Part shown: piece after piece, positions 1-62,841 of the stretch | How positions within the stretch are numbered: position 1 is the stretch's first letter | Layout: every line of letters starts with the position of its first letter | Origin: Chitinophagales bacterium | Lineage (GTDB): Bacteria; Bacteroidota; Bacteroidia; Chitinophagales; Chitinophagaceae | Length of the DNA stretch: 64,000 nucleotides | Reading direction: 5' to 3' | Assembly: GCA_030832085.1 (NCBI GenBank) | Contig: JAURJU010000038.1 | Span: forward strand, 1 to 64,000 | Program-made: the position numbers and the translations under genes | Notes under the pieces: generated by a model | What the model was told of the DNA's origin: nothing | Seen by the model: only the letters and a program-made list of their open reading frames with translations | The model's database searches: none

Positions 1-2756
1 AGGTATACGACATCCATGTAGTTGATGTTTCCATCATTGTTGATGTCTTCATACATGGCATCTCCGGGTTGAAAGATGTAATCGGTGCTGGGATAGTTGA
101 AGCGCATGTAAATGATCTGCCCGTTGGGTCCGATGATTGGAGCGCCCTTTCCATCCTTTGCCACAGTCGCGGCCTTATCTGTGTAAACACCCTTGTAGCG
201 GTATCCATAGAATGAACCGAAAGGATTGTTCACCTGAAGCAAGCGAAGGTATTCACCATTCTTGGTGACATCTCCCTTTGTGTTGGGATAGAATTCTGAA
301 ATTTCCCTGATGACGTTTTGGTTTGCGGACAAGTTGAAGTCAAATCCGATGGTCAGGTTTTTGGTTTTGTAGGGTTGCGTCCAAACGGCAACTTCCCAAC
401 CCTGATTGTCCATGGTGCCAACGTTCATGAACAATGAATTGAATCCTGTGTAAGAAGCGATCTGAAGTCCATCAAAAAACAGGTCTTTGGTCCTGTTCCT
501 GTAAATTTCAGCATCCATGCGGAACCTGCCTCCCAACATGCTCAAGTTAAACCCGATATTGGTTCCGTGGAGCTTTTGCCAACGCAGGTTTTTGAGTTCC
601 ATCCTGGATGGATAGATGCCGGCCTGCCCCAAATAGGTATAATCGTAGGTAGTATAGGTATTGTAAAATAAATAATCGTAACGAGGCACCTCTCCGGCAA
701 TACCATAACTGGCCCTCAAGCTCAGGTCATCCAGGAACTTGACGTCCTTGAGGAATTTTTCCTCTGAAAGCCTGTAACGGAAAGACAGGGAGGGGAATAG
801 GCCATAACGATAGTTGGGACCAAACCTTGAATTTCCATCTCCACGCATGGTGACATTGAAAAGGTATTTATCCTTGAAACTGTATTGAGCACCAACAAGT
901 GCACCTACAGAACGGTTCTGGTTCTGTCCAGACACAGAACGCAACTCCGCATTTTGTGTGCGCGATGCGATAGAAGGATCCACCAACAATGAGGATGCTG
1001 TATTGGAAGTCATGGCTTCCTGGAAAACAGCCTTGTAGTCGTTGGTGAGTATGTTCATGAATGCCTGGAGATCATGGTTCTGGTTTTTGATCTTTGGCGT
1101 ATAAATGAGGCTAGTTTTGGTACCAATGCTGAATGCGTCTATATCACCATTGTAGGCCCTGTTTACAACAGTTTCGGTGTTGGGGCGTCCTGTGGCAATT
1201 TGTGGAAGAAAGCTGTTGTTTTTGGTGCTGTTGATGTCCAGCTGCACATCAAATGTTGCTTTCAATACTTTTTTTACAATATCATAATCAATCTGAAACC
1301 GGGGAATCACACGGTCTCCCAGGATGGTATACATGGCCTTGCTTGCCATGGCAACCGGATTGTAAACCCTGCTGTATTGACCCTGGATATTGGCTGCCGG
1401 AGAAAAATAGTTGGTGGTTGGCTCACCAAGATCATTGTACTCAAATACACTCATGTTCGGCATTTTGATATAAGCCATTCCGCGAATGGAAGACTCACCA
1501 CTGGCTGAACTGGATCCCAGATAATTCCTTGTCTGGTCAGAATGCGTGTATGAAAAACTGGTGAAGAATTTGATCTTTTCGGAAACGTTGTAATCCAGGT
1601 TGATCCTTGTGTTGATCCTTTGAAGCCCGGTTCCGATGGTAATACCCTGTTGGTCAAAATAACCCACTGATGCAAAATACTTTGCCTTTTCGCCCCCACC
1701 ATTCAAACTCAACGTATGGTCCCGGACAAATCCGGTTCTGGACACCGCATCAATCCAGTTGGTGTTGTTGCTGTAGTTATGGTACCAATAAGGGTCATTG
1801 GGATCATAATTGAATTCCCTGCTGGTGGTGGTATTGAGGGTTGTACCCATCCTGTTCATGAATGCTTCTGGTATCAGCGAGGAATACTGGTCTCCATTGA
1901 GCAAGGGGATTGCATCAGGAACAAGAGATACAGAACCTTTAAAAGTATAGTTCATGGAAGGCTTACCAATATTTCCCCTTTTTGTGGTAATCACCAGTAC
2001 ACCATTGGCAGCCTTGGCGCCCCAAATGGCAGTAGCTGCAGCATCCTTCAGCACCGTGATGGTCATGATATCAGCAGGTGAAATATTCAAGAGTTGCGCA
2101 TAGCCCTGCTCATCTGCTGTGCCAAAATTAAAGTCGCTTGGAATCTCTGTTTCATATGGCATTCCATCCAATACGATCATTGGTATGCCTGTTGAATTGA
2201 TGGATGAAACACCGCGAATTCTGATGTTCATTGCAGCGCCGGGATCTCCACTGGAGGCAGTAATATCAACACCACTCAGCCTTCCCTGGAGTGCCTGATC
2301 GATGCTTGGGGCCTGCATTTCCTCCATCTCCTTTGCATTGATTTTGGCAACCGCAGTCGTCAGATTTTTCTCAGGAATGTTCATCATTCCGTTGGAGCTG
2401 GTGGGCCTAGCAGTGATGATGACCTCACCAAGATCTCCCTGGCTCTCCTCCAATGTAAGGTTGATTGTAGTTCTTCCATTGATTTTTTGGGTGATGGTTT
2501 TGTAGCCTATAAAAGAGACAGAGATCCTGTTTTTTGTACCATTGGAATTGTTCAACACATAGTTGCCCGCCACATCGGTTTGTGCACCCTTTACGATCCT
2601 GTTGTCTGCATCAAGCTCAGAAACTGAAACTCCTTGAATGGGCTTGCCAGCCTTATCGATGATCTTTCCCCTCAACACAGTTTGTGCAGAGACCAGCATC
2701 CCCACAAATGAGAATGCGATCGTCAATGTTGAAACCCTTGATAATAATTTTGACAT
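1..2756 (-). CDS. SusC-like TonB-dependent outer-membrane receptor, 3' end cut by window edge
   Basis: Partial gene; about 918 residues are visible from the ATG at 2756. The start encodes a Sec signal peptide (MSKLLSRVSTLTIAFSF... ending near LVSAQ), followed by a carboxypeptidase-regulatory-like domain (about 25-110) and a TonB plug with the SusC-type signature DAAATAIWGAKAANGVLVITTKRG-like around residues 215-240. The visible end reads NINYMDVVY, the calcium-binding-like stretch usually found about 100 residues before the SusC C-terminus, so only the last barrel strands are missing. It should import oligosaccharides across the outer membrane with a SusD partner, presumably beyond the left edge. 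It lies 26 bp downstream of the FAS1 lipoprotein gene and is probably co-transcribed with it. The substrate cannot be read from the sequence. Confidence 0.93.
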   Translation of the reverse strand, partial: MSKLLSRVSTLTIAFSFVGMLVSAQTVLRGKIIDKAGKPIQGVSVSELDADNRIVKGAQTDVAGNYVLNNSNGTKNRISVSFIGYKTITQKINGRTTINLTLEESQGDLGEVIITARPTSSNGMMNIPEKNLTTAVAKINAKEMEEMQAPSIDQALQGRLSGVDITASSGDPGAAMNIRIRGVSSINSTGIPMIVLDGMPYETEIPSDFNFGTADEQGYAQLLNISPADIMTITVLKDAAATAIWGAKAANGVLVITTKRGNIGKPSMNYTFKGSVSLVPDAIPLLNGDQYSSLIPEAFMNRMGTTLNTTTSREFNYDPNDPYWYHNYSNNTNWIDAVSRTGFVRDHTLSLNGGGEKAKYFASVGYFDQQGITIGTGLQRINTRINLDYNVSEKIKFFTSFSYTHSDQTRNYLGSSSASGESSIRGMAYIKMPNMSVFEYNDLGEPTTNYFSPAANIQGQYSRVYNPVAMASKAMYTILGDRVIPRFQIDYDIVKKVLKATFDVQLDINSTKNNSFLPQIATGRPNTETVVNRAYNGDIDAFSIGTKTSLIYTPKIKNQNHDLQAFMNILTNDYKAVFQEAMTSNTASSLLVDPSIASRTQNAELRSVSGQNQNRSVGALVGAQYSFKDKYLFNVTMRGDGNSRFGPNYRYGLFPSLSFRYRLSEEKFLKDVKFLDDLSLRASYGIAGEVPRYDYLFYNTYTTYDYTYLGQAGIYPSRMELKNLRWQKLHGTNIGFNLSMLGGRFRMDAEIYRNRTKDLFFDGLQIASYTGFNSLFMNVGTMDNQGWEVAVWTQPYKTKNLTIGFDFNLSANQNVIREISEFYPNTKGDVTKNGEYLRLLQVNNPFGSFYGYRYKGVYTDKAATVAKDGKGAPIIGPNGQIIYMRFNYPSTDYIFQPGDAMYEDINNDGNINYMDVVY

Positions 2757-2782
2757 GTAAATCATAAGAAATGTATCTAAGA

Positions 2783-5011
2783 TTAGTTGAAACGCAGATA
2801 ATTGTTGATGAGATGAATGGTACACCTGTTGCTGAGCACATTGCTAGGAGCCAATGTAATGTTGGCTGTCCTGTTTTTCATGTCATTCACTGAAATAACA
2901 TTGGGAACAGAATTGTTGACAAAGATGGTAGATGGGTCGCCGTTGGGGAACTTATACAAGGTCTCAAAAGATCCACTTTCTTGTCCATCGGTTGCAATAT
3001 TTTTCTTGTTGAGGATATGGTAATAAATGAAGTTTGCCACTTGTTCTCTTTCCAAGGGAGTAGTGGGGTTGAACAAAGGGGACTTGTTGGGTGCAACACC
3101 TGTCCCAGGAAGCAACCCAGCATTCACAGCTGCCTTGATCGCATTATTGTCGGGGATAAAAAATGTGTAGAAGGTTCCTGATGCAATCCCTGTAATTTCA
3201 GAAGTGGCTGCCGTAAAAATAGATGAGGATTTAAGGTATTGCCAAAAGGAGTTGTATTGAGATGCTGCAGGCGTGCCCAGCAATTCGATATGCTTTCCAA
3301 TGGCAACTTCACTGAACTGCAGTAGTTTATCAATAAAATAAACAGTACCATTTGCCGCTGTTTTAGTACCGATTACGGCTGCTGTTGCAGCGACATCTCT
3401 ATTTCCAGAGGTAAATGCCTTATTCCCTCCATAGGAAACAAACTCACCTGAATAGGTCAATCCTACCCCATTGCCACTCAGGTTGGTGATATCACGGCCT
3501 GGAACTACATGCATGTTAAGTATACGTTGCAACCTGACCAGCGCAGAAGACCCCGTCAACTGCGCACCGCCTGATGGAGGAATATAGCGCCATTGTTCGT
3601 TGACATTGTTGCTTACAGTGGGATCAACAAAATAACCCGCAGCATTGATGGCGCTGTTTTTGACCAGGAACAGGGTATATTTTTGTTTGATGTTTGAAAC
3701 CTGGAATTTGAGGTCCAGGTTCAACAAATTGGTCATGATGGAATAATCTGGATTGAGATAGGCCTTCCCGTATACACTGCTGAATACATTGGCTTGCTGA
3801 ACCTTGTTCGTTCCATAAAAAATTCCATTGCTGAGCACTTTTTTATCTGTTACATCCGTTGAGGCATTGAACCTTGCTTCCTCACCCACTGAATTGAAGG
3901 TCGAAGAAAACTTGGAAGGCCAAACAGATGTCCTCCACATGTGTGCATTGATAAAATCATACAATACATTGATGGGAAGCGCTTCAACAGAGGGATAAAA
4001 TTCAAGCAAAACATCTTTGATATATTTGGACAACACATCATTCTCTGGAACAAACATTGAATACCCATCGGATTGTGCGTCATTGTCTTGCAGCTTTAAA
4101 AAATTTTCATTGTTCAGGGAAAACGCAAGATTTGCATTGTAGACTTTTGTATATACATCTTCAGACTTCCCACTTACAATCTTGTATTTCTGCGACACAG
4201 TTGGATTGATAACATATTGCACCATAAATTTATCCAGCAATTTCTTGAACTCACTGTACTTTGGATTCTCCCCAATGTACTGGTCGATGCTTGGAAGAGC
4301 AGTGATAACACGATCAACAACATGGATCACTCCATTTTCAGCAGCAATATCCTTTTGAACAACTTTCGCATCTGCCACATTGAATCCCGCATAGGTAGCC
4401 TTGGGATAAAAGTACAGGTAATCCGCCGCTGTCAGTGACTTCCCCGTCATATAGCCTGCATCAAAAATGGGCAAATGCTTATTGTTGTTGTCTGCATCCA
4501 CATAATACAACAGGCTGTTGTTGTTCCTGTTCGAAGCAATGGCTTTGATTGACTTTCCCTGTAGATCAGTAGTCGAGTAAACTCCGGTATAATTGGCAGT
4601 CCTGCGCTTGTATGCCGCATTTTCTATCCAGCCTGTATTGCTTTGAAAATCAGCGATGCGCTCTTGCTTGAACGCATTGTACACCAGGCAATAGGTAACA
4701 ATTTGACGTGCAGCGGTTGAATCCAAAGCAGTTATGCCTGCAATTCCTTTTTCAGCATAAAATACTTTGAAGGCAGAATCGTGTGGTGCAAACAAAGTCC
4801 AATAACCGGCAGCGGAAAGGGTTGACTTGTAACCCGCCTTGTCTATCAATGCCAGCATTTGTGTGAAATTCCCTTTGGCTTCCAATTGCTGATAGATTGG
4901 TTTTTCAAGTGTTTCGGGCCTTTGGTAAAAGGCATTGAACTCCTTTTTGCATGCGGTTAAACTGGCTACCACAGTGACCAGTATAATCATTGATCTCAAT
5001 GTTTTAAACAT
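2783..5011 (-). CDS. Lipoprotein with about four fasciclin (FAS1) domains
   Basis: The protein is 742 aa from the chosen ATG. The open frame extends 25 codons further upstream, but only the start at 5011 places a lipoprotein signal (MFKTLRSMIILVTVVASLTAC) at the N-terminus. Roughly four FAS1-like units follow. The first (about 20-245) ends in the typical NGVIHVVDRVI motif; later units end in NGIFYGTNKV, NGTVYFIDKLL and a final CTIHLINNYL-like strand. FAS1 domains mediate adhesion or carbohydrate and protein contacts. As the gene directly precedes a susC gene, a role as a surface accessory or glycan-binding lipoprotein of that receptor is inferred. No catalytic motif is visible. Confidence 0.85.
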   Translation of the reverse strand: MFKTLRSMIILVTVVASLTACKKEFNAFYQRPETLEKPIYQQLEAKGNFTQMLALIDKAGYKSTLSAAGYWTLFAPHDSAFKVFYAEKGIAGITALDSTAARQIVTYCLVYNAFKQERIADFQSNTGWIENAAYKRRTANYTGVYSTTDLQGKSIKAIASNRNNNSLLYYVDADNNNKHLPIFDAGYMTGKSLTAADYLYFYPKATYAGFNVADAKVVQKDIAAENGVIHVVDRVITALPSIDQYIGENPKYSEFKKLLDKFMVQYVINPTVSQKYKIVSGKSEDVYTKVYNANLAFSLNNENFLKLQDNDAQSDGYSMFVPENDVLSKYIKDVLLEFYPSVEALPINVLYDFINAHMWRTSVWPSKFSSTFNSVGEEARFNASTDVTDKKVLSNGIFYGTNKVQQANVFSSVYGKAYLNPDYSIMTNLLNLDLKFQVSNIKQKYTLFLVKNSAINAAGYFVDPTVSNNVNEQWRYIPPSGGAQLTGSSALVRLQRILNMHVVPGRDITNLSGNGVGLTYSGEFVSYGGNKAFTSGNRDVAATAAVIGTKTAANGTVYFIDKLLQFSEVAIGKHIELLGTPAASQYNSFWQYLKSSSIFTAATSEITGIASGTFYTFFIPDNNAIKAAVNAGLLPGTGVAPNKSPLFNPTTPLEREQVANFIYYHILNKKNIATDGQESGSFETLYKFPNGDPSTIFVNNSVPNVISVNDMKNRTANITLAPSNVLSNRCTIHLINNYLRFN

Positions 5012-5294
5012 ATCCTTTGATATCATATGGTAAATGCTTTGGATGAAAATTGGATGAAACGGGCAGTACATCTTGAGCGAGAACATGCTTGGCAGTTGTA
5101 CCCTTTAGGATGGATTGGAATGGGCATGGCATGTCCCAATGCAAAGGGCTTGTTTTTTCTCATGGCAGTACTGGTTAAATTTCAACAATTCAATTTGGCA
5201 TCTTGCAGTTGCTTGTAGATCCGACAAAATGAATGGTTGATATTTCCTGTGCTAAATGTAAAAAAAAGGAATTTTACTTAAGAATTAACACGCT

Positions 5295-5322
5295 TTTATT
5301 TACGCAATCGTTGCCGGAAACA
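5295..5322. promoter_or_regulatory. Candidate LacI-family operator shared with the pectin operon
   Basis: The sequence TTTATTTACGCAATCGTT (5295-5312) is repeated exactly at 62816-62833 in front of the pectin susC operon and its LacI gene. Here it continues as GCCGGAAACA. The core GCAATCGTTGC is an odd-centred palindrome. It lies between the divergent FAS1/susC and GH105 genes, about 190 bp before the GH105 start. LacI-family control is inferred from the symmetry, the repeated copy and the nearby regulator gene at 62921. Confidence 0.6.
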
Positions 5323-5335: not shown

Positions 5336-5510
5336 CAAGCTTGTAAGAAATTAATGCGCTGCAATTGATCCATATTGAGCCATTGGCCAAAAACGCATTT
5401 TTATCTGATACCAAACCTTAAGAAATTGCTTGATTTTATCATCAGGACGCTTCAGGATGACATTAACGCTTAAATGCACTATGTTTATATTGCACAATCA
5501 ACGCGTTAAG

Positions 5511-6638
5511 ATGAAAAAAACATTTGCATTTTTCACGTTAGGATTTTTTTCAATGTTGGCTTCCGCCCAGGATTTGCCAAGCAGCAGGAAGATCAAAAAT
5601 ACCTTGAGGCTGACCAATCAATACTTCATGGACAAATGGCCCGATGCTGGAAAGTCGATTTTCACCAACATAGAGCGGCCAAGCAACATATGGACCAGGG
5701 CGGTGTATTATGAGGGTTTGATAGCCCTCTATGCCACAGATAAAAAAAAGGAGTACAAGGATTACATGCTACAATGGGGAGAGAAACATAAATGGAATCT
5801 TCGGGCAGGAGCCAATACCAGGAATGCAGACAACCAGTGTTGTGGGCAAACCTATATCGACCTCTATCTTATGGATGGGAAAAAGCATCCTGAGCGCATC
5901 ACCGCCATCAAGGCCAGCATTGACAATATGAAACAATCATCAAAAATTGATGACTGGAACTGGATTGATGCCTTACAGATGGCGATGCCTGTTTTTGTAA
6001 AACTTGGAAACCTTTACAATGACACCAGTTATTTCAACAGGATGTACGAGATGTATGCGTTTACAAAAAACAAACACGGAGGCAATGGCCTTTACAACAA
6101 AATAGAGCATTTGTGGTGGCGTGATAAGGACTTTGTTCCACCCTATAAAGAACCCAATGGGGAGGATTGTTACTGGAGCAGGGGCAATGGTTGGGTGGTT
6201 GCTGCATTGGCCAGGACCCTGGAAGAATTACCAACATCCGACCCGCATTATGGTGAATACATGGAGGATTTTAAAAACATGTGTGCCGCATTGCTTCCGC
6301 TGCAAAGGCCCGACGGCTATTGGAATGTAAGCCTAAATGACTCCAACCATTATGGAGGAAAAGAAGTCTCTGGCACATCACTTTTCATTTATGGTTTTGC
6401 CTGGGGCATCAACAAAGGCATATTAGATAAAGCAGCATACTCCCCTTCCATCATCAAAGCCTGGAATGCCATGACTGCAGAAGTTGTACATCCCAATGGT
6501 AAACTGGGATATGTGCAGGGGACTGGAAAAGAGCCAAAGGATGGACAGCCAGTTGGATATGATAAAACACCTGATTTCGAAGATTATGGTCTTGGATGCT
6601 TTCTGCTGGCAGGGACAGAAATACTTAGATTAAAGTAG
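5511..6638 (+). CDS. GH105-family unsaturated uronyl hydrolase (YteR/RhiN type)
   Basis: 375 aa from the ATG at 5511, chosen because it opens a clear Sec signal peptide (MKKTFAFFTLGFFSMLASAQ); the frame is open 27 codons further upstream. The fold is a single GH88/GH105 (alpha/alpha)6 barrel. The motif DDWNWIDALQMAMP places the catalytic acid at Asp153, and YWSRGNGWV lies at 221-229, both typical of GH105. These enzymes hydrate the 4,5-unsaturated uronic acid left by pectate or rhamnogalacturonan lyases, releasing an unstable keto sugar. It is likely periplasmic. It stands alone on the plus strand, but its upstream region shares an 18-bp element with the pectin operon some 57 kb away, so it probably belongs to the same regulon. 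Confidence 0.9.
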   Translation: MKKTFAFFTLGFFSMLASAQDLPSSRKIKNTLRLTNQYFMDKWPDAGKSIFTNIERPSNIWTRAVYYEGLIALYATDKKKEYKDYMLQWGEKHKWNLRAGANTRNADNQCCGQTYIDLYLMDGKKHPERITAIKASIDNMKQSSKIDDWNWIDALQMAMPVFVKLGNLYNDTSYFNRMYEMYAFTKNKHGGNGLYNKIEHLWWRDKDFVPPYKEPNGEDCYWSRGNGWVVAALARTLEELPTSDPHYGEYMEDFKNMCAALLPLQRPDGYWNVSLNDSNHYGGKEVSGTSLFIYGFAWGINKGILDKAAYSPSIIKAWNAMTAEVVHPNGKLGYVQGTGKEPKDGQPVGYDKTPDFEDYGLGCFLLAGTEILRLK

Positions 6639-9719: not shown

Positions 9720-12700
9720 TTAGTTGAAACTGATCCTAAAACCAACATTGTACATGGTCGTATTGGGGTAAGAAGTACCACGACCATCCCCCAATTCAGG
9801 ATCCCATATTTTCCAGCGAGATTTGGTAAACAAATTTGTACCATTAACATAGATACGCATTTTGCTCACGGCAAATCTTTTCAATGTTCTTGCAGTAAAG
9901 TTGTAACCAAGCTCTGCATTTTTTAATCGAACATAATCTGCACGCTTGATCCACCAAGTGCTGGTTTGATAGTTTGTAGTGATGGTTTGATTGGTTGACA
10001 TGCGTGGATAGAAAGGACGCGGGTTACTGGTTTTTGTATCCCCAGTCCAGCGGTCGGTAACCATGCTGTACATGTTGCCATAGGTGGCTCCTTCGGAAAA
10101 TGGAGTTGTTCCAAACCCAGATGCGTAGTTAAAATCAACCATACCAGCACCCTGGAAAAACAGACTCACATCAAACCCTCTGTAACCAAAGCCAAAGTTC
10201 AAGCCATACAGCATGCGTGGCACTGCTCCAAATCCAATAGCAGTCTGATCATAGGAGTTGATGATGCCATCCCCATTAAGATCTTTGTATTTGATGTCTC
10301 CAGGACGCACATCACCCGCCTGGGTGGGTGATGCAAGAATTTCAGTTGAATCAGAAAATAAGCCCAAGGCAACATAACCAAAGCGCTGGTCAATCGGGTG
10401 TCCTTGACGGTTCAACCATGGATACTGCCAAGGCGGCAAACCGTCGTAAACATTTCTGTTTTGGTTGTAATTGAATGACCCATTAAAACTGATAAACGAA
10501 GAACGCTTGAAATTCTTTGTGTAGGTTAAACTTGCATCGATGCCTTTGTTTGACGTAATGCCAATATTGCCATAAGGAATGTTATCAGATCTGTATCCTG
10601 ATGCATAAGGGATGGTATAGTTGCGTATCAGAATTCCTTCGCGGCGCTCCTTGAACAATTCAACAATCAATTGTAATTCATTGTGAAATGCATGCAATTC
10701 AATTCCTATGTTATGACGTTTTGAAGTCTCCCAAGTAACATCTGATCCAACTTGCCCTTCCTGCAATCCCCCATAAGCAATTGTGCTCCCAGGGACTCCA
10801 TAGGTATAGCCATTTCCGGAATTGATTTGTGTCAAGAACAAGAAACGATCTCCGGTATTGCTGTTACCGGACAACCCATAACTATAACGCAACTTAAAAT
10901 GACTGAAGACAGTTGAAAGAGGATCAAAGAATTTTTCATTGGAAACCACCCAGCCTGCACCAACGGATGGAAACAAACCATAGCGGCTGTTGGGTGTAAA
11001 GTTTTCGGAACCAGTATAACCAAAGTTTCCTTCCACAAAATATTTGTTGTCATACCCATAAGTGGCACGCCCGGTTAAACCGCGAATACGAAACGGGATT
11101 GAACTTACTACATCAGTGGCATTGGAGTTAACATAATCACTTTGATTGTACAATAACATACCCGATACATTGTGTACTGACTTGAACGTATTGGTATAGT
11201 TCAATGAAGACTCCGTATAAATCCGGCGATTTGTAGCTGTAGTAGAACTAAAACCAAGTACGTCACTACCTACAAATATTGGAGAAGTAATAAGATTTCC
11301 ACTTGCATCTCTTCCAGTTGCCCGGAATGTTGAAACACTTCTTGTACGTCTTAATGTTGCTGCGGAGTAATTGTCAAACGCAAACATGGATGTGATGGAT
11401 AGTCCTTTCAGCCAAAAATCAAGATCCTGTTTCAAGCGAATGTTGGAGCGAACAGTATTGCTGAACTCGGTTGCATAACCTGAACGGGTAAGCGGAATAT
11501 ATGGGCTCACAGGAGTTCCCAACTGGTATTGAGGGGCCTGACCATTGGAATAAACGGCTGGTACAACATGTGGCGGCACACGGGTTGCCTCGGAAAAAAG
11601 AGAAGGTGTACCAATACCAGGATAATTACCATTGGTCAGAAATCCATTGATCCCCAATTCAAGCTTGGTACTTTTTGTAAGATCGACATTCACATTTGAT
11701 GTGAAATTGTAACGGTTAAAATTGATGGAAGAATTGTATGCCTGCACTTCATCCCGCTTGAACATACCTACTTCGTTGTAGTAACCTGCAGAAATGTAGT
11801 AATTGGCAGTAGATGAACCACCTCTTACATTGAGGTTCACACGGTTGCTATTCCCATATTTGTTAAAGAGCTCTTTGAACCAATCAACATTGGGATACAA
11901 ATCAGGATCTTCTCCGCTGGCATGCTTTGCAATAATATTTTCAGCATACTGTGCAGTCCTCGCGCGCATGGTCAATCCCTCATTGTACATTCGCATGAAT
12001 GTAGGAGCATCAACAAAACTTGGCAATTGTGTAAACTGTGAATATGCTTGGTTCACCTCCACATTGACTTGCGCCTTTCCAGCCTTCCCCTTTTTGGTAT
12101 TGACAAGTATGACTCCATTTGCACCACGGGTACCAAACACAGCAGTAGCAGATGCATCCTTAAGTACTGTAAAACTTTCAATATCCTCAGGATCAATGTT
12201 GTTGATAGACCTGTCAGGAACCCCATCAACCACCAGCAACGGGCTGCGTGGACTTGATGCAAATGTTGAGACCCCGCGAATGAATATAGAAGAAGCATCG
12301 TATCCAGGCTCACCACTTCTCTGTACAGCCACAACACCAGCCAAACGACCAGCCAAGGCATTGGTAAGGTCCCTCACAGGAATTTTCAACTCTTCGGGCT
12401 TTACAGTAACCTGTGAACCCACAACACTGATTTTTTTCTGCCGACCATAGCCTACTACGGCTACTTCACTCAAGTTTTCTGCTTTAATGTCCATCTCAAC
12501 CACCATATTGCCTGTTGTCACTGCTGGCAGTTCAAGCTGGGTATAACCAACTGCACTGAACACAATCAAAGCAGTTGAATTTTTTACGCGAATACTGAAT
12601 AGTCCGCTGGCATTTGTTACAACGGTATTTTGAGTACCTTTTTCAGCAACACTGGCATTGGCAATCAACATGCCAGCTTTGTCCTTCAAAAGACCTGTGA

Positions 12701-12785
12701 CCAATACTGTTCCATCTTGCGAAAAGGAGGAGGAAACAGAAAAGCAACAAGCCAGTAGAAACAGCAGAAAATGTTTTGGTTTCAT
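9720..12785 (-). CDS. SusC-like TonB-dependent receptor
   Basis: 1021 aa with signal peptide MKPKHFLLFLLACCFSVSSSFSQ. A carboxypeptidase-regulatory-like domain (about 28-105) is followed by a TonB plug with VVGYGRQKK, the LLVVDGVP motif and VLKDASATAVFGTRGANGVILV, then the beta-barrel with a YKDLNGDGIINSYDQT loop near residue 840. It forms the outer-membrane channel paired with the SusD protein encoded just downstream. A perfect LacI-type palindrome lies about 150 bp before the start, suggesting repression by a LacI-family protein. No regulator gene is adjacent; the tRNA and another locus separate it from the LacI gene at 22421. Confidence 0.96.
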   Translation of the reverse strand: MKPKHFLLFLLACCFSVSSSFSQDGTVLVTGLLKDKAGMLIANASVAEKGTQNTVVTNASGLFSIRVKNSTALIVFSAVGYTQLELPAVTTGNMVVEMDIKAENLSEVAVVGYGRQKKISVVGSQVTVKPEELKIPVRDLTNALAGRLAGVVAVQRSGEPGYDASSIFIRGVSTFASSPRSPLLVVDGVPDRSINNIDPEDIESFTVLKDASATAVFGTRGANGVILVNTKKGKAGKAQVNVEVNQAYSQFTQLPSFVDAPTFMRMYNEGLTMRARTAQYAENIIAKHASGEDPDLYPNVDWFKELFNKYGNSNRVNLNVRGGSSTANYYISAGYYNEVGMFKRDEVQAYNSSINFNRYNFTSNVNVDLTKSTKLELGINGFLTNGNYPGIGTPSLFSEATRVPPHVVPAVYSNGQAPQYQLGTPVSPYIPLTRSGYATEFSNTVRSNIRLKQDLDFWLKGLSITSMFAFDNYSAATLRRTRSVSTFRATGRDASGNLITSPIFVGSDVLGFSSTTATNRRIYTESSLNYTNTFKSVHNVSGMLLYNQSDYVNSNATDVVSSIPFRIRGLTGRATYGYDNKYFVEGNFGYTGSENFTPNSRYGLFPSVGAGWVVSNEKFFDPLSTVFSHFKLRYSYGLSGNSNTGDRFLFLTQINSGNGYTYGVPGSTIAYGGLQEGQVGSDVTWETSKRHNIGIELHAFHNELQLIVELFKERREGILIRNYTIPYASGYRSDNIPYGNIGITSNKGIDASLTYTKNFKRSSFISFNGSFNYNQNRNVYDGLPPWQYPWLNRQGHPIDQRFGYVALGLFSDSTEILASPTQAGDVRPGDIKYKDLNGDGIINSYDQTAIGFGAVPRMLYGLNFGFGYRGFDVSLFFQGAGMVDFNYASGFGTTPFSEGATYGNMYSMVTDRWTGDTKTSNPRPFYPRMSTNQTITTNYQTSTWWIKRADYVRLKNAELGYNFTARTLKRFAVSKMRIYVNGTNLFTKSRWKIWDPELGDGRGTSYPNTTMYNVGFRISFN

Positions 12786-12935: not shown

Positions 12936-12959
12936 ATTTGCGCAAACGTTTGCGCAAAT
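12936..12959. promoter_or_regulatory. Perfect 24-bp LacI-family operator palindrome
   Basis: The half-site ATTTGCGCAAAC at 12936-12947 is mirrored exactly by its reverse complement at 12948-12959, with the central CG and the AACGTT core typical of LacI/PurR-family operators. It is about 150 bp upstream of the susC gene starting at 12785, the only gene nearby that it could control. A degenerate relative is at 45880-45897. A protein-binding function is inferred from the perfect symmetry and position. Confidence 0.72.
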
Positions 12960-18901: not shown

Positions 18902-21900
18902 TTAAAAATTAATGTCAATACCGATCAAGACTGTTTTGGGAATGGGAAATGATCCGCGCTGGTATCCATCAATCAATACAGATGAATATGCACCATTCGA
19001 GAACCTTCCTTCAGGATTAAGCCCCCTATAGCCTTTTGCTGTCTTGAAATAAAGGTTTTGTGCAGACAGGTAAAAGCGCAGGGATTTTACTTTTAATTTT
19101 TTCATAAAAGCAGCAGGTATCGTGTATCCAACATTTACATCCCTTAGTGAAACATATGATGCGTCTTCTATTACATAGTCTGTGAGCATCCAATTGTATC
19201 CCAATGTTGAGAATGGCGTTTTGCCATCACCAGGAAACTTTGCACTGACCCAGCGGTTTTGATTGTATGTTCGTATTGTCCTCCTTGATTCATTGTAGTT
19301 AGGATCACCGTTGATCAGTTTTCCGCCTTGAACACCCTGGAATGTGAAGCTGACATCGAATCCCTTGAAACCAAAATTGTTGGTGAGGCCCCATGTGAAA
19401 TCTGGATATGGATTCCCAAGATCTGTCCTGTCTTCATTGTCGATCTTGTTGTCTCCATTGATATCCACGATCTTCAATCCTCCCGGTACGAATACACTAC
19501 TCAAGGAACTTGTTAAACCTCCTGCCTGGGCCTTGTTGATTTGATCTTGGGAGAGCCATACACCATCTGTCTTGAATCCGAAATACTGGACCAAGGGATT
19601 TCCGACCTTATTCCTATAAACCTCGGTGCGTTCGCCCTGGTTCAACAAATACGCTTCTGTCCCCAATTCAATGATGCTGTTCTTGTTTTGGGAAAAATTA
19701 GCAGAAGTTGACCATTTGAAATTTTTTGCTTGGATATTTCGCGTCGTCAGTTCCAACTCAATTCCTGTATTCCGGAGACTTCCGATGTTGTTCCAGAATT
19801 GAGGAACACCCGTAAATGCCATAGCAGACTGTTGCAGAAGAAGTTTATCGGTTTTTGATTTGTATGCATCAAGTGTAAGTCCTACCCTGCCGCTGAACAA
19901 GGATAAGTCCAAACCAAAATTGGTTTGGTATGTGCTTTCCCAGGTTATGCCTGGATTGGAAATAATTGTGGAAGAATTCACCAAGCCAGGGAATGAGGTT
20001 CCTGTTCCAGAACCAATTGAATAGTTGGCGCCATACATCAAATCCAAGAATGCAAAATCCGAAATGCGGTTGTTGCCTGAAATTCCATAACTACCTCTGA
20101 GCTTAAGGGTAGAAAGCCAATCAATGTTAGAGAGGAATTTCTCTTTGCTTGCTATCCACCCAAGAGAAACCGAAGGAAATGTCCCCCACTTGTTTCCTGG
20201 CCCAAAATAGGAACTGCCATCGGCCCTGAAACTTGCAGAAAAAAGATAACGATCATTGTAGCTGTAGTTCAATCTTCCCAAATAGGACAATAGACCGATT
20301 TGATTTTTTGTACCAAAAGTTCCATTCTTGTCCAATTGTGCTGCACTGTTCAAGGTCCTTATTTGGTCACTTGGAAAATCAATCGCTGCTGTTTGCTCTT
20401 TGCTTACTGTTGTTTTCTGGGATGTGAAACCAGCGAGGATATTGAATTCGCTTTTACCGGCTGTTTTCACATAGTTCAGCGTGTTTTCTGAAAGAAGGTC
20501 AATGAAAACATTGTTGGTGAACACGCCCCGGTTGTTGTCTCCATCCCTGTTGGCGTTTCGTTGAGAGAAATCCAGGCCATTGGTATAATTCAGGTAAGTG
20601 CTGGCAAGGGTTTTAAAAGTAAGCCCTGGAAACAGCACTATGTTCAAGTCAGCAGATGATTGAAGGCGGTATTCGTTGGAATAAATATCCGTGCGGAGTA
20701 CTGCAGACTTTGGGTTCTGTTGTGCGGAACCGCTTGGATTCACTGTTGTAGCACCTGAAGTCCAGTTGGATCCATCAGGCATGACACCAGAATAAATAAG
20801 ACCAGAGAAATGCCTTGGATGTGCATAATCCCCGGCCTTGATTCCGGCATACTGTGGATTTTTGTTCACAAATGCTGCAGTAGCATCGTTATGATAAACG
20901 GGCAACCAAGTTGGGAATCTCCAAAAATTCGTAAAGTTTTCTGATGGAGCAGAACGCTTGGAATAAGATGGATTGAGGTTTAGACTCAATTTTACTTTCT
21001 TGCTGAGGTCCAGATCAACCTTGGTTCTGATATTGAATTTCTCATAATTGCTCTTGTACATCATACCCTCGTCATTCTGATAGCCGGTAGAAAGGAAATA
21101 CCTTACATCCTTTTTGCCACCTGCTACACTGAGCATGATATTTTGGAAAGTGGCGGGCCGAAGGGACTCTGATTGCCAGTCAGTACTTTGACCACCGCGG
21201 AGCAGATTTTCAACAATATATGATGCACGGTCACCATCTGCCACGGTATTGTTTGCAGGCAATACAGTTGAATCTTTGGCGCGTTTTGCCATTTCATCAA
21301 AGAGCATTCCTATGTATTCGCCAGTGGTCATGATATCATACCGTTTGTAATCTTCTTTTTGGCCAACAGAATACTTGAGCACATATTTGGGCTTGTCTGC
21401 AGTGCCTTTTTTTGTAGTCACAATGATCACGCCACCAGAACCCCTTGACCCATAAATGGCGGCAGATGCGGCATCTTTCAAAACTTCAACAGATTCAACA
21501 TCTGCCATGTTCAAAAAGGCAAGACCATCCGGTATGGGTTGTCCATCCACAATGACCAGCGGGCTTGACCCAGCATTGATTGAACTGATACCCCTTATGT
21601 TTATTTTGGGTGCTGCACCTGACTCAGAACTGACATTTTGAACTGTCAACCCCGCAACCCTGCCTTGCAATGCCTGATCCAACCTTGACATGGGAGATTC
21701 ATCCATCCTGTCGTTTTTGTATTTGGCAACAGCACCTGTCAAGCTTGACTTTTTCTGGGTACCATAACCAACAACAACAACTTCTGATTGAGAAACTGCT
21801 TCTGGCACCAAAAAGATGTTCAGTGTTGTGCTGGAACTGACAGTTGCAGATTGAGCAGTATAGCCAACATATGTAAAAACCAAGTTGGATACTCCCTTAT

Positions 21901-22093
21901 CAAGGGTCAATGAAAAACTGCCATCAGATTGGGTGAGAACTGCTCCTTTGCTCTTATTCGTGATGATCGAAACCCCAACCAATGGCTCTCCAGTTGACTG
22001 ATCAACAACCTTGCCCTTGATTTCCTTTTTTTGGGCAAATGTTATACCAGAAATGCCAAAAAGGGCAAGGAACAATAGAAATCTAAATTTCAT
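18902..22093 (-). CDS. SusC-like TonB-dependent receptor of the sulfated-glycan locus
   Basis: 1063 aa with signal peptide MKFRFLLFLALFGISGITFA. Carboxypeptidase-regulatory domain about 22-95, then VVVVGYGTQKKSSLTGAV, SPLVIVDGQPIP and VLKDAASAAIYGSRGSGGVIIVTTKKG of the plug, followed by the barrel with VDINGDNKIDNEDRTDLG near 895-915. It is the outer-membrane channel of a locus with two sulfatases and an alginate-lyase-type enzyme. First gene of its operon, divergent from the LacI gene at 22421; the 327-bp region between them contains an inverted repeat and three CCGGAA boxes. Confidence 0.96.
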   Translation of the reverse strand: MKFRFLLFLALFGISGITFAQKKEIKGKVVDQSTGEPLVGVSIITNKSKGAVLTQSDGSFSLTLDKGVSNLVFTYVGYTAQSATVSSSTTLNIFLVPEAVSQSEVVVVGYGTQKKSSLTGAVAKYKNDRMDESPMSRLDQALQGRVAGLTVQNVSSESGAAPKINIRGISSINAGSSPLVIVDGQPIPDGLAFLNMADVESVEVLKDAASAAIYGSRGSGGVIIVTTKKGTADKPKYVLKYSVGQKEDYKRYDIMTTGEYIGMLFDEMAKRAKDSTVLPANNTVADGDRASYIVENLLRGGQSTDWQSESLRPATFQNIMLSVAGGKKDVRYFLSTGYQNDEGMMYKSNYEKFNIRTKVDLDLSKKVKLSLNLNPSYSKRSAPSENFTNFWRFPTWLPVYHNDATAAFVNKNPQYAGIKAGDYAHPRHFSGLIYSGVMPDGSNWTSGATTVNPSGSAQQNPKSAVLRTDIYSNEYRLQSSADLNIVLFPGLTFKTLASTYLNYTNGLDFSQRNANRDGDNNRGVFTNNVFIDLLSENTLNYVKTAGKSEFNILAGFTSQKTTVSKEQTAAIDFPSDQIRTLNSAAQLDKNGTFGTKNQIGLLSYLGRLNYSYNDRYLFSASFRADGSSYFGPGNKWGTFPSVSLGWIASKEKFLSNIDWLSTLKLRGSYGISGNNRISDFAFLDLMYGANYSIGSGTGTSFPGLVNSSTIISNPGITWESTYQTNFGLDLSLFSGRVGLTLDAYKSKTDKLLLQQSAMAFTGVPQFWNNIGSLRNTGIELELTTRNIQAKNFKWSTSANFSQNKNSIIELGTEAYLLNQGERTEVYRNKVGNPLVQYFGFKTDGVWLSQDQINKAQAGGLTSSLSSVFVPGGLKIVDINGDNKIDNEDRTDLGNPYPDFTWGLTNNFGFKGFDVSFTFQGVQGGKLINGDPNYNESRRTIRTYNQNRWVSAKFPGDGKTPFSTLGYNWMLTDYVIEDASYVSLRDVNVGYTIPAAFMKKLKVKSLRFYLSAQNLYFKTAKGYRGLNPEGRFSNGAYSSVLIDGYQRGSFPIPKTVLIGIDINF

Positions 22094-22311: not shown

Positions 22312-22346
22312 CGTTTCCGGAATCGTTACCGGAAATAATACCGGAA
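22312..22346. promoter_or_regulatory. Three CCGGAA boxes at exact 12-bp spacing (LacI-type operator cluster)
   Basis: CCGG begins at 22317, 22329 and 22341, each followed by AA, exactly 12 bp apart. The first is centred in the near-palindrome CGTTTCCGGAATCG, and the second reads ATCGTTACCGGAAAT, resembling the ATCGTTGCCGGAAA of the site at 5307. The cluster ends about 75 bp before the LacI-family gene at 22421, so autoregulation plus control of the divergent susC operon is the simplest reading. Confidence 0.6.
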
Positions 22347-45879: not shown

Positions 45880-45897
45880 TGCGCAATCGTTTGTGCA
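45880..45897. promoter_or_regulatory. Candidate LacI-family operator before the Gfo/Idh-DUF1080 operon
   Basis: TGCGCAATCGTTTGTGCA is an imperfect palindrome (7 of 9 half-site positions match) with a central CG. It resembles both the perfect palindrome at 12936 and the GCAATCGTT core shared by 5303 and 62824. It lies in the 103-bp gap between exuT and the Gfo/Idh start at 45800, about 80 bp before the latter. Confidence 0.55.
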
Positions 45898-45903
45898 AAT
45901 CGA

Positions 45904-47307
45904 TCAGAGGTCAGTAATCAGCTTGAATTTGGGAACAAGGGATTTCATTACCAGCCATGCAATCAAATAAGCGGTTGCACAAAATGCAAACATGATGGTA
46001 TATCCGGTTTCAATATGCCCCAACGCCTTGTAATGATCGAACAGGGCACCTCCAACTTTCGTAACAATCACACCACCAATGCCACCGGCCATCCCGCCGA
46101 TGCCAACCACCGATCCAATGGCTTTTTGGGGAAACATATCTGAAACAGTGGTAAAAATATTTGCGCTCCAAGCCTGATGGGCAGATGCCCCCACGGCAAT
46201 CAGCAATACAGGCATCCAGAAACTGATGCTGCCCAATGGCTGTGCAGCCAGAACCACCAAGGGGAACAATGCAATTACAAACATGGCCCTTAGCCTTCCA
46301 TCATAGGCATTGTAGCCCTTGTTGATAAAGTAAACTGGGAACCATCCCCCACCGATGCTGCCGACCATCGTAAAGCTGTACAACACCACAAGTGGCAAAA
46401 CGATTTCCGTTCCTGTCATTCCATACTGGTCTTTCAGGTAGGCAGGAAGCCAAAACAAAAAGAACCACCAAACCCCATCGGTTAGGAATTTTCCTAAGGA
46501 GAATGCCCAGGTTTGCTTGTATTTGAATAGACTTTTCCAGTTGACCTTTTCACCGTTGGCAGTCGATTGCTGGGCAACTTCTGCAGCGTCTGAGGCAAGG
46601 ATGTATTCACGCTCAGCTGCTCCCATTCTTTTTTGAAGATGGGGTGGTTCGTAATACATGTACCAGAAAATCAGCCACAAGAAACCGATGGCACCAATCA
46701 CAATAAATGCCATTTCCCATCCATAATTGGTCGCAATCCAGGGTACGCTGAGGGGTGCCAAAATTGCGCCAATGTTTGTTCCTGAATTGAAAATTCCCGT
46801 TGCAAATGACCTTTCTTTTTTGGGGAAATATTCTGCTGTTGCCTTGATGGCTGCCGGAAAGTTACCAGCTTCCCCAATGGCCAAAACCGCCCTTGAGAAA
46901 ATGAATCCCATGACGGAAATGGGAACTGCAGCCAAACCAATCCATCCGAGAGAAGAAACAAGTATTTCTCCTATTGGAATGGCCAACGCATGCACAATGG
47001 CACCAATTGACCATAGGATGATGGCCCATGCATAACCTTTCTTTGTACCCAGCTTATCGATGATCCTGCCCGCAAACAACAAACAAACAGCATAGGTAAA
47101 TTGAAATGCAGATGCTATGTTGGCATATTGACTGTTTGTCCAGCCAAATTCATCTTCAAGCATGGGCTTGAGAAGACTCAGTACCTGTCTGTCAAGATAA
47201 TTGATGGTGGTTGCAAAGAAAAGCAAGGCACAGATGGTCCACCTGTATCCGCCGGGTTTTGTTGTTGATGGCATGGTCGTTGGGTTGTTGTCAGTTATGG
47301 TTTCCAA
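45904..47307 (-). CDS. exuT: Hexuronate-type MFS transporter (ExuT-like, ACS family)
   Basis: 467 aa with about 12 membrane segments. RWTICALLFFATTINYLDRQVLSLL, followed by the loop FAGRIIDKLGTKKGYAW, fits the anion:cation symporter branch that takes up galacturonate and glucuronate. Its start overlaps the end of the isomerase gene by 13 bp, showing co-translation with the uronate pathway. It should bring monomeric uronate from the periplasm into the cell. It is the last gene of the 17-kb pectin operon. Hexuronate specificity is inferred from context and family. Confidence 0.88.
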   Translation of the reverse strand: METITDNNPTTMPSTTKPGGYRWTICALLFFATTINYLDRQVLSLLKPMLEDEFGWTNSQYANIASAFQFTYAVCLLFAGRIIDKLGTKKGYAWAIILWSIGAIVHALAIPIGEILVSSLGWIGLAAVPISVMGFIFSRAVLAIGEAGNFPAAIKATAEYFPKKERSFATGIFNSGTNIGAILAPLSVPWIATNYGWEMAFIVIGAIGFLWLIFWYMYYEPPHLQKRMGAAEREYILASDAAEVAQQSTANGEKVNWKSLFKYKQTWAFSLGKFLTDGVWWFFLFWLPAYLKDQYGMTGTEIVLPLVVLYSFTMVGSIGGGWFPVYFINKGYNAYDGRLRAMFVIALFPLVVLAAQPLGSISFWMPVLLIAVGASAHQAWSANIFTTVSDMFPQKAIGSVVGIGGMAGGIGGVIVTKVGGALFDHYKALGHIETGYTIMFAFCATAYLIAWLVMKSLVPKFKLITDL

Positions 47308-48716
47308 TTGAAATAGTTGACATTGTTGTTGTAACAGATGTCCTGTACCATCTTACCGAGCCATTCAATGTCATTGGGCAGTTCTCCCTCTTCCACTTCT
47401 GTACCGATCAGATCACACAGTATTCTTCTGAAATACTCATGTCTTGGGAAAGATAAGAAACTTCTTGAATCTGTGAGCATTCCAACAAAACGACTTAGCA
47501 ACCCCATGTTGCTCAACGTGTTCAATTGCTTGATGATGCCATCTTTTTGGTCGAGAAACCACCATCCTGATCCGAATTGCACTTTGCCAGCCACCGAACC
47601 ATCATTGAAGTTTCCTGCCATGGTGGCCATCACCTCATTGTCGGCGGGATTCAAATTGTAGAGTATGGTTTTGGTGAGCTTGTTGCGGGTATCAAGGCCG
47701 TTTAAGAAAGTGGACAAGGACTTTGCCTGGTCAAAAGTGCCGATGGAATCCCAGCCGGTGTCGGGCCCCAATTGTGCCAACATCCTTGAATTGTTTCCCC
47801 TCAGTGCGCCCAGGTGAAACTGCTGTACCCAGCCTTTCTCATGGTCCCACTCCGCAAAATGAACCAGCATGGCTGATTTGAACTGGCGCTGGCACTTGAG
47901 GCAAAGTTCTTCGCCTTTCAACAGTCGATCGAAAATGACTTTGATTTCATCTTCAGTATAGGCATCAGCATACATCTCTTCCAGACCATGATCCGAAACC
48001 TTGCAGCCCATTGTTGCAAAGTAGTCGTGACGGGATTTGAGAGCAGCGAGATAATCTGCAAAAGAAACAATTGGCATGCCTGCTGCTGCAGAAAGCTTTT
48101 CCACATATTGAAGGAAGGGAACAGTACTGTTTACATTCATGGCCATATCTGGCCTGAATGCGGGAACCATCCGAATATCCGTTTCCTCGGCTTGCATGGC
48201 CTGGTGGTATTCGAGTGAATCAACAGGGTCATCTGTCGTACAAACCAATTCCACCTTCATCTTTCGCAACAGGTTCCTGACAGAAAATTCCTTCGTCTTC
48301 AACAAGGCTGTGCAATGTTCATAAATGTCCTTTGCATTCTCAGGGCTTAGCAATTCATTGATGTTAAAATATCGCTGTAGTTCCATGTGCGTCCAATGGT
48401 ACAATGGATTTCGCATGGTATAGGGTACGGTGGCAGCCCACTGTTCAAATTTTTCCAAATCGGATGCAGCGCCAGTACAAAAACTTTCATCAATGCCATT
48501 GGTGCGCATGGCACGCCATTTGTAATGATCGCCATGCAACCACACTTCGGAAAGATTGTTGAAAATTCTGTCCTCTGCAATGTCTTTGGGCGACAGGTGA
48601 CAATGATAATCGATGATGGGCATATCGGCCGCAAAATCATGGAACAGCCGCTTTGCGGTTTCAGTTTTCAGCAGAAAATCCTTGTCAAGAAAAGCTTTCA
48701 TTTGATCCAGTTTCAA
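47295..48716 (-). CDS. uxaC: Uronate isomerase
   Basis: 473 aa, full-length. The metal-binding motif DYHCHLSPKDIAEDRIF (about 37-53) and later motifs such as RFVGMLTDSRSFLSFPRHEYFRRILCD are those of UxaC, a member of the amidohydrolase superfamily. It converts galacturonate to tagaturonate and glucuronate to fructuronate in the cytosol. It starts 7 bp after the tagaturonate reductase gene; the transporter starts within its last codons. A second possible start five codons in (MKAFLDKDF) is less likely but not excluded. Confidence 0.96.
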   Translation of the reverse strand: MKLDQMKAFLDKDFLLKTETAKRLFHDFAADMPIIDYHCHLSPKDIAEDRIFNNLSEVWLHGDHYKWRAMRTNGIDESFCTGAASDLEKFEQWAATVPYTMRNPLYHWTHMELQRYFNINELLSPENAKDIYEHCTALLKTKEFSVRNLLRKMKVELVCTTDDPVDSLEYHQAMQAEETDIRMVPAFRPDMAMNVNSTVPFLQYVEKLSAAAGMPIVSFADYLAALKSRHDYFATMGCKVSDHGLEEMYADAYTEDEIKVIFDRLLKGEELCLKCQRQFKSAMLVHFAEWDHEKGWVQQFHLGALRGNNSRMLAQLGPDTGWDSIGTFDQAKSLSTFLNGLDTRNKLTKTILYNLNPADNEVMATMAGNFNDGSVAGKVQFGSGWWFLDQKDGIIKQLNTLSNMGLLSRFVGMLTDSRSFLSFPRHEYFRRILCDLIGTEVEEGELPNDIEWLGKMVQDICYNNNVNYFNWKP

Positions 48717-48723
48717 GTAGTTT

Positions 48724-50145
48724 TTATGAAAATTTATTGATTGTGGCCATCATGCCATCATTGAGGATGGACAATACCATGCCTTCTACCGATGCTGTTG
48801 CACCAGGTAACATGGAAAGATCCCTTCCCCAAGTGTCTACATCTGCCAGCACCTGCAGCAGTGTTGCATTTGGATTTGTTTTTGATATCATTCCCATTTG
48901 CACAAGATACGCACTAAAACCGATTAGCATGTTCACAGGAAGTTGGCCTTTTTGTTCAATGGAAGCAATGATCAGGGGCAGACACCTTATCTTCATTTTG
49001 AGGGTGAACTGTGCAGAAATGCTTGCCCATTTGTGCTCAAGAAAAGGATTGGAAAAACGGTCGAGCACCGCTTTCCCAAAGGCACTGGCCTCTTCAGCCG
49101 ATATTTTTTCACCTGTAATGACAGCAGCAATCTCACCCAGGGTCAATCGCTTGATATAAGCATTCAACACATCATCCGCCATGCTGTCCTTGACCAGTTC
49201 CATGCCTGCAAGCAGCGATATCCCACAACTGAATGTATGCGTGGCATTCAACATGCGCAGTTTCAACTCCTTGAACTTTTCAATGGAAGGTACAACCATA
49301 CAACCTTTGGCAACATTGCAAAATCCAAGGGTATCAATTACCCTTTGGTCTTCTGATTCAATGGCCCATAGTCCAAAGGGTTCGGACATGATCATCAGAT
49401 CATCGACATAACCCAATGCTTTGGATGTTTTTTGTTGATCATCGGCAGAAAGTTTTCCGGGAACAATACGATCAACCAGTGTATTGCAAATGGGATTTGC
49501 ATGGTTCAACCATTGCATAAATGTTGTATCGAGTTGGTTGTGTTGCGCAAGGCGATTCAGCACATCTTTGAGTTTTGTACCATTTTCTTCAATCAGCTCT
49601 GCAGGTATGATGACCAGACCTTTTTTAAGATCACCTCCGAAATGGACATAACGGGAATGAAGCACAGCCAAGAGCTTTCCGGGAAACGAAGCAGGTGTTC
49701 CTTCGAATATATTTTCCTCCTCAAACACAATGCCCACTTCTGTGGTATTGGATGTCACCACCTGCAAATCATCGGAAGTAGCCAATGATAATATTTCCAT
49801 CCAGTCTTCACTTGCAGATAGCACCCTGCTGATGGATGCATTCACATGTGCTTCATTTACTAGCTGTCCGTCGGCAATTCCCCTGACACATACTGTGTAC
49901 AACCCATCCTGGGCTGAAAATGCATCGGTTGTTCCTGCCTGGGTGGATTTTACCACCACTACACGCCCACTGAATTTTCCTGTACGGTTCGCCTCGTGAA
50001 TGTATTGATCCGGAAGGCCGCGCAAAAGCACGCCTGTTCCGAATTGCAAAACTTTTTCCGGAAATGCAAGCTGCGCTGCCGTTGGTAAATGTAGGTTCTC
50101 AATGCCTTCAAGTTCTTTCAGAATGCTTCGCTTCAAATGCTTCAT
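48724..50145 (-). CDS. uxaB: Tagaturonate reductase (altronate oxidoreductase)
   Basis: 473 aa of the mannitol-dehydrogenase family. FPEKVLQFGTGVLLRGLPDQYI is the UxaB-type N-terminal cofactor region; CNTLVDRIVPG is the conserved central motif, and LGYVDDLMIMSEPFGLWAIE follows. It reduces tagaturonate to altronate with NADH, the step after UxaC. Its start overlaps the preceding CE8 stop by 4 bp (ATGA). UxaA, the following enzyme, is not in this window. Confidence 0.95.
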   Translation of the reverse strand: MKHLKRSILKELEGIENLHLPTAAQLAFPEKVLQFGTGVLLRGLPDQYIHEANRTGKFSGRVVVVKSTQAGTTDAFSAQDGLYTVCVRGIADGQLVNEAHVNASISRVLSASEDWMEILSLATSDDLQVVTSNTTEVGIVFEEENIFEGTPASFPGKLLAVLHSRYVHFGGDLKKGLVIIPAELIEENGTKLKDVLNRLAQHNQLDTTFMQWLNHANPICNTLVDRIVPGKLSADDQQKTSKALGYVDDLMIMSEPFGLWAIESEDQRVIDTLGFCNVAKGCMVVPSIEKFKELKLRMLNATHTFSCGISLLAGMELVKDSMADDVLNAYIKRLTLGEIAAVITGEKISAEEASAFGKAVLDRFSNPFLEHKWASISAQFTLKMKIRCLPLIIASIEQKGQLPVNMLIGFSAYLVQMGMISKTNPNATLLQVLADVDTWGRDLSMLPGATASVEGMVLSILNDGMMATINKFS

Positions 50146-51164: not shown

Positions 51165-51169
51165 GCTCC

Positions 51170-54535: not shown

Positions 54536-54542
54536 ACAACAA

Positions 54543-57642: not shown

Positions 57643-57697
57643 GGAAAAAAGAAGGCAGGCAGCCAATGAATGACTACCTGCGTGTATTTGCATTTGA

Positions 57698-59518: not shown

Positions 59519-59537
59519 ATGTTGCACATTAAGTAGA

Positions 59538-62729: not shown

Positions 62730-62815
62730 ATCTGCGTGATTTGTATGGTTTAGCCATTGTGAATCTATCTGCAATTCTATGGTGTTTTTGGGCCTGTTCA
62801 GCCCCATCCGACAAG

Positions 62816-62841
62816 TTTATTTACGCAATCGTTCCCGAAGT
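62816..62841. promoter_or_regulatory. Candidate LacI-family operator of the pectin operon
   Basis: TTTATTTACGCAATCGTT at 62816-62833 is identical to 5295-5312, and the next bases (CCCGAAG) follow the pattern of GCCGGAA there. It lies about 88 bp before the lacI-type start at 62921 and about 87 bp before the susC start at 62729, so one bound protein could control both. Confidence 0.62.

Follow-up and report, generated by a model that had tools for sequence, protein, structure and literature searches.

A conserved LacI-linked element marks a putative scattered pectin regulon in Chitinophagaceae

The window analysed here, meaning the whole stretch of 64,000 nucleotides, comprises bases 1-64000 of contig C8 in the 2.89 Mb assembly (111 contigs) of a Chitinophagales bacterium. 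At its left edge, a FAS1 (Fasciclin-domain) protein (2783-5011, minus strand; start taken as 5011 in an ORF that extends to 5086) is encoded by the first gene of an operon that continues with a SusC-like TonB-dependent receptor (3-2825, minus strand), which is cut by the contig end and whose orthologues in relatives also follow FAS1. Divergent from this operon is a gene for a GH88/GH105-type hydrolase (5511-6638, plus strand; Pfam PF07470; start taken as 5511). The right part of the window holds a pectin operon (45904-62807, minus strand), the content of which was assigned by a Pfam scan. Its first genes encode SusC (59538-62807), SusD, a protein without a Pfam match, a GDSL/SGNH esterase and a pectinesterase, and its later genes encode a GH28-GH88/105-DUF4350 fusion, a pectinesterase-like protein, a UxaB-like protein of the mannitol-dehydrogenase type, UxaC and an MFS transporter. 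The fusion (51170-54535) is a single protein of 1121 amino acids that joins all three domains. Across the gap from this operon lies a gene for a LacI-family regulator (62921-63943, plus strand; LacI 62921), the product of which has LacI/GalR architecture (Pfam LacI at 8.1e-11 and Peripla_BP_1 at 3.4e-39). The genes that flank the two copies of an 18-mer are those that an earlier note on this DNA had described.

The 18-mer, TTTATTTACGCAATCGTT, is indeed present at both places given in that note, 5295-5312 and 62816-62833, and the partial agreement reported 3' of it is also seen (GCCGGAA versus CCCGAAG). A third copy was not found in the 64-kb window at up to three mismatches, where shuffled sequences average 0.06. 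The earlier note had considered the repeat hard to explain by chance, but taken bare it is less striking than that. The bare repeat is only moderately improbable, as 10 of 60 random 64-kb windows generated with a first-order model contained one or more exact 18-mer pairs, and exact pairs arose in 7 of 300 simulations of the non-ORF sequence alone (3,017 bases outside greedily chosen ORFs). In the real window, exact 18-mer pairs number 22 in direct and 3 in inverted orientation. A single exact pair in 64 kb is no great surprise, and we judge the element to be real because it is conserved in relatives, where shuffled patterns score zero or nearly zero; given this conservation, a chance repeat is practically negligible as an explanation despite the frequency of such pairs in random windows.

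The 18-mer is the core of a longer conserved element, TTTWTTTACGCAATCGTTCCCG, which appears to be of LacI type. Copy 1 (5295-5319, plus strand; 21-base frame 5299-5319) lies in the divergent FAS1/GH105 gap and copy 2 (62816-62840, plus strand; 21-base frame 62820-62840) in the divergent susC/lacI gap. All listed copies have a central CG, and an A/T tract is conserved on the promoter side of the element. The kduI copy, TTACGAAATCGTTCCCGTAA, is a near-palindrome while most other copies have one degenerate arm. An RNA element was considered and dropped, since Rfam at gathering thresholds gave tRNA alone in the window.

A search of the whole genome did not turn up the many unrelated copies that the earlier note had named as counting against a regulon: at up to three mismatches TTTACGCAATCGTTCCCGNAA has five matches and the reversed pattern has none. 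Four of these are good copies and lie upstream of the pectin susC operon (C8:62820, in its gap with lacI), the FAS1-susC operon (C8:5299, in the FAS1/GH105 gap), another susC that is paired with susD (C16:659) and a kduI-kdgK-yhcH-kdgA-like cluster (C3:26315), with gene names on C16, C3 and C96 being assigned from translations. Since the pectin operon and the C3 cluster are both included, the putative regulon covers import, depolymerisation and much of uronate catabolism. The fifth match (C8:22314; window 22314-22334; TTTCCGGAATCGTTACCGGAA) lies between a susC (18902-22093) and a lacI at 22421 and was left out of the regulon as a different palindrome adjoining lacI 22421, of which it is probably the own operator. 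Downstream of this susC are SusD, sulfatases and an alginate-lyase-family gene. At one mismatch a 14-base core also matches the lacI/uxaC gap of C96 and a purH-like frame (named from its translation); the latter match (C22:219925), being within a coding frame, was taken as chance. This genome has seven GH88-family genes, five of which lack a nearby site.

Most of the named relatives belong to the Chitinophagaceae. At up to two mismatches the 21-base pattern has 138 sites in 58 of 147 Chitinophagaceae genomes, while a reversed control pattern has three matches, one each in G005, G047 and G070. Within the genus the pattern is present in 22 of 41 genomes at up to three mismatches, and in a phylum sample it is found in 9 of 198 genomes, namely 5 of 8 within the family and 4 of 190 outside. 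For comparison with these sites, 64 LacI matches from 62 of the 147 genomes were counted as orthologues of LacI 62921 (62 above 380 bits and 2 truncated). Site and LacI occur together in 51 genomes, the site alone in 7, LacI alone in 11 and neither in 78 (Fisher 6e-21, ancestry ignored), and with sites not adjoining lacI the same four counts are 47, 7, 15 and 78, again with shared ancestry ignored. In a set of 80 lacI orthologue loci, 66 have a site at up to three mismatches within 700 bp upstream (a shorter span where the contig ends earlier), all 66 in the same orientation, and 100 shuffled patterns gave none. Another sample of lacI loci, which overlaps the first in genomes, has a site at this threshold in 22 of 30, so that 14 of 80 and 8 of 30 loci are without one. 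The first 60 residues of LacI 62921 are largely conserved in the 80 orthologues, and in the susC/lacI gaps of four close relatives TTTATTTACGCAATCGTTCCCG is kept as the sole long invariant block. The proposal of a distributed regulon linked to LacI 62921 is thus upheld by the site-bearing genomes that hold this LacI and by the orthologues that have the site upstream, and a scattered pectin/galacturonate regulon that this protein would read is well supported by the genome comparison.

There may instead be another regulator, either a LacI paralogue or an activator of a different family, that reads the element with lacI 62921 being a neighbour or a fellow member. Seven of the 58 genomes with sites have no 62921-type LacI, the co-occurrence counts covered two LacI types only, and an asymmetric site in an upstream position is also typical of direct-repeat activators. 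Against such a reader stand the apparently LacI-like palindrome frame with its central CG and the behaviour of the second LacI type, which is linked to uxaC and was counted at E values up to 1e-80. In genomes without the uxaC-linked LacI, the 62921 type predicts the site (21, 4, 6 and 65 genomes in the order used above; P 3e-12, ancestry ignored), but the reverse does not hold, as the uxaC-linked LacI fails to predict the site in genomes without the 62921 type (3, 4, 13 and 65; P 0.12) and adds no prediction in genomes that have it (30, 21, 5 and 6; P 0.51). The uxaC-linked LacI of C96 was rejected as a family-wide reader for this lack of prediction beyond the 62921 type. Site-like stretches in the lacI/uxaC gaps of C96 and C58 are six positions off consensus. 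We regard a reader other than LacI 62921 as very unlikely.

The position of the element relative to promoters was analysed by scoring -7 boxes with a matrix set by hand for the Bacteroidetes consensus, given as TAnnTTTG in the available text of PMC7366714; for each motif the best-scoring box to either side was used. The element is directional: only one of its sides has a -7 box, and the distance from the element centre to the box is mostly 39, 49-52 or 61-62 bp. A non-redundant set was made up of 93 contexts, none with a 62921-type lacI across the gap. On the strand opposite the motif, a box is present in 77 of them, and 39 of these 77 fall in the 4-bp bin 49-52 (500 rotations: mean 7.4, maximum 12). 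Boxes at 38-40, 48-52 or 60-63 account for 56 of the 77 (controls: mean 9.0, maximum 18); these phase windows were picked after an earlier analysis of an overlapping set, and the best-4-bp-bin test is independent of them. The box is in phase for 14 of 18 GH28 genes, 14 of 20 pectin-type susC genes, 7 of 8 FAS1 genes, 5 of 5 kduI genes (from close relatives) and 2 of 2 uxaC genes in the non-redundant set, and in 34 of 42 lacI divergons. In the window, the pectin susC operon has a predicted -7 box, TAGAATTG (62772-62779, minus strand), at offset 51 from the element centre, and the FAS1-susC operon has one, TACATTTA (5253-5260, minus strand), at offset 49. The C16 susC has a weak -7 box that scores below threshold. 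Non-lacI genes on the other side show no peak, as 11 of 46 are in phase (rotated controls: mean 5.0, maximum 13). A -7 peak is also missing on the lacI side of the element, where 7 of 50 boxes are in phase and the controls average 6.4, and autoregulation of lacI was dropped as a candidate on this count.

If a -7 box begins some 11 bp ahead of the transcription start, the commonest site would be centred near -62, as in class I activation. The predicted boxes and starts do not place the element over or downstream of the core promoter as for a classical LacI repressor; rather, its fixed orientation and helical phase upstream of predicted promoters correspond to a class I-type placement. The geometry by itself suggests that the element turns genes on, and we favour activation because the site keeps this one-sided, phased relation to -7 boxes. 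It is also conceivable that the same LacI acts at the same site as a classical repressor that is released by a uronate, with the upstream position reflecting looping or the blocking of another activator. Most studied LacI-family proteins do repress, which counts for this explanation, but a repressor site would have no need to lie some 40-60 bp ahead of the -7 box in one orientation and helical phase at promoters unrelated to each other, and we consider repression unlikely. The element is probably the site of LacI 62921 or its orthologue, governing a scattered Chitinophagaceae pectin/galacturonate regulon by activation. In this mechanism the LacI 62921 protein would bind the element about 60 bp upstream of the start, would contact RNA polymerase and would thereby activate transcription, and the signal would be a pectin-derived uronate. 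The direct targets in the window would be the pectin susC operon to the left of 62820 and the FAS1-susC operon to the left of 5299.

In relatives the putative targets also include GH28, lyases, uxaC, uxaA and others. The surroundings of 102 foreign sites not adjoining lacI, taken as 100 stretches, contain 132 facing proteins within 500 bp of a site, and 75 of these match reference proteins from the window or regulon. A Pfam scan that covered the other 57 as a set found DUF3826 in six, PL9-type helices in two, short-chain dehydrogenases in two (named KduD-like here), one altronate dehydratase and one PL1-type pectate lyase, together with unrelated families (LytB 3, sigma-70 types 3, GH2 3 and others). 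Among 223 distinct contexts, the promoter-side gene is susC-like in 95, a label that alone does not establish a pectic substrate, and GH28 in 38, kduI in 10 and FAS1 in 8; it has another label in 26, no label in 20 and is absent in 26. As 80 of the loci were retrieved through lacI, lacI loci are over-represented in this set. Nine of 231 sites fall within ORFs. The DUF3826 proteins adjoin the element in loci L127, L146, L159, L186, L200 and L208, and neither of the two promoter-side cases examined has an in-phase -7 box. In the available text of PMC7939467, the pectin methylesterase BT1017 is described as having DUF3826 as its C-terminal domain.

The earlier note had suggested that the left susC operon might belong to the regulon, and this part of its proposal is supported by relatives in which FAS1 loci carry the site. 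FAS1 orthologues are present in 26 of the 147 genomes. In G083, G071, G039 and G109, FAS1 heads a FAS1-susC-susD-FAS1-FAS1-susC-susD locus (the second susD and the middle FAS1 genes were assigned by eye), which is followed in G083 by a GH105-like and an SGNH gene, and in G048 FAS1-susC is seen as far as the contig end. A site is found in 8 of 30 FAS1 loci at up to three mismatches and in 10 of 30 at up to four, where 30 shuffled patterns gave none and at most one, respectively. For example, G175 and G182 have the site in the same FAS1/GH105 gap, and in G161 it adjoins a 90% identical FAS1 with a TAAATTTA box at the same offset of 49. The longest invariant block in the aligned gaps of these three genomes is TACGCAATCGTT-N-CCG. 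In G039 and G109, FAS1 is on the opposite, non-promoter side of the motif. The predicted FAS1 promoter, if right, would give a leader of about 240 bases (window 5012-5252); in relatives too the site is far from FAS1.

Control of the GH105 gene by LacI 62921 through the 5295 element, which was the other part of that proposal, now looks weak. FAS1-susC is the likelier direct target of the 5299 site because the promoter side faces FAS1-susC and not GH105. The likely -7 box of GH105, TATGTTTA (5480-5487, plus strand), is 170 bp from the element on its non-promoter side, GH105 has no above-threshold box in phase with the element, and there is no peak for the other-side genes taken together. Among 28 GH105-orthologue loci, 4 have a site at up to three mismatches, those of this genome, G083, G122 and G035; in G083 the promoter side faces susC and in G035 the site belongs to another gene. 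Direct control draws some support from G122, where GH105 is on the promoter side, 83 bp downstream of a site that has a box at 61, and from retention of the site in the FAS1/GH105 gap of G175 and G182. Additionally, GH105 activity feeds the KduI branch. We hold direct control of GH105 to be doubtful, and the gene would be at most a second or indirect target.

Upstream of GH105 there is also a direct repeat, CAGGAC-N4-CAGGAT (5443-5458, plus strand), that is a possible site of another regulator. The repeat followed by the TATGTTTA box at 5480 is a combined pattern unique in the genome. CAGGAY-N4-CAGGAY is found upstream of 8 of 28 GH105 orthologues (loci L081-L108; 20 shuffles gave one match in all), followed by a -7 box in 2 of these 8, and somewhere in 23 of 30 FAS1 loci (L219-L248), a count made without a shuffled control. 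It is on the promoter side of the element in 7 of 223 contexts, at one common offset, and in 3 of these 7 the best -7 box is at 61-62. This repeat may be the candidate site of a second pectin regulator common to GH105 and FAS1.

The prevailing view has LacI-family proteins as local repressors and attributes most Bacteroidota glycan loci to HTCS or ECF systems. A literature search that covered few subscription papers found no direct account of a pectin regulon controlled by LacI or of LacI acting as an activator in these bacteria. Among known regulators, those that come closest by description are KdgR, UxaR and UxuR from Bacteroides, together with UxuR2 from Algoriphagus. As presented in the available text of PMC3878776 and PMC4052901, the three Bacteroides proteins are likewise of the LacI family, control galacturonate, glucuronate and KDG catabolism and are assigned to monosaccharide pathways, whereas the pectin loci of B. 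thetaiotaomicron are assigned to HTCS regulators. In contrast to these descriptions, the import operons and depolymerases carry the site here. UxuR2 of Algoriphagus marincola HL-49 is also a LacI-family protein and acts over two separate galacturonate/glucuronate loci, which differ in having a TRAP transporter and a GH109 gene (excerpted text of PMC5507952); by context, as far as it is described, it is closer to the C96 lacI-uxaC locus with its Gfo/Idh-type neighbours. The element has the central CG of LacI/GalR operators as described in part in PMC4052901, and its frame may correspond to their even palindrome, but it differs from them in having one arm degenerate in a conserved way and a conserved promoter-side A/T tract. 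Its predicted upstream, helically phased position would resemble that of CRP-type class I and CcpA activators. CRP at -61.5 is a class I activator, and CcpA can activate.

We incline towards a dedicated Chitinophagaceae LacI-family pectin activator with an asymmetric, phased site and a dispersed regulon that would include the FAS1-susC-susD-FAS1-FAS1-susC-susD locus. If so, SusC/D import operons, GH28 hydrolases, lyases and the uronate pathway would be switched on through one asymmetric site, and a site that is linked to LacI and has strict activator geometry would represent a further means of activating polysaccharide loci. FAS1-susC loci, and perhaps DUF3826 genes, would be placed in pectin use. 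The analysis also provides predicted -7 boxes for many promoters of the family and, with them, promoters that are immediately testable.

Several other palindromes and one feature of the assembly were observed. Contigs C58 and C96 hold two diverged Gfo/Idh-lacI-uxaC copies (L016 and L015, respectively) with LacI proteins that are 93% identical, and mixed strains in the assembly are suggested because of these diverged copies; the listed contamination is 4.81%. A perfect 22-bp palindrome, TTTGCGCAAACGTTTGCGCAAA (12937-12958), lies upstream of susC 9720-12785 and has a near copy close to the C84 lacI (L018:9780), the two being a putative operator pair of a different LacI type. Two LacI-like palindromes on contig C8, at 45881-45896 and L020:1373, are GCGCAATCGTTTGTGC, upstream of a Gfo/Idh-type gene, and TTTATGCAATCGATTGCATAAA.
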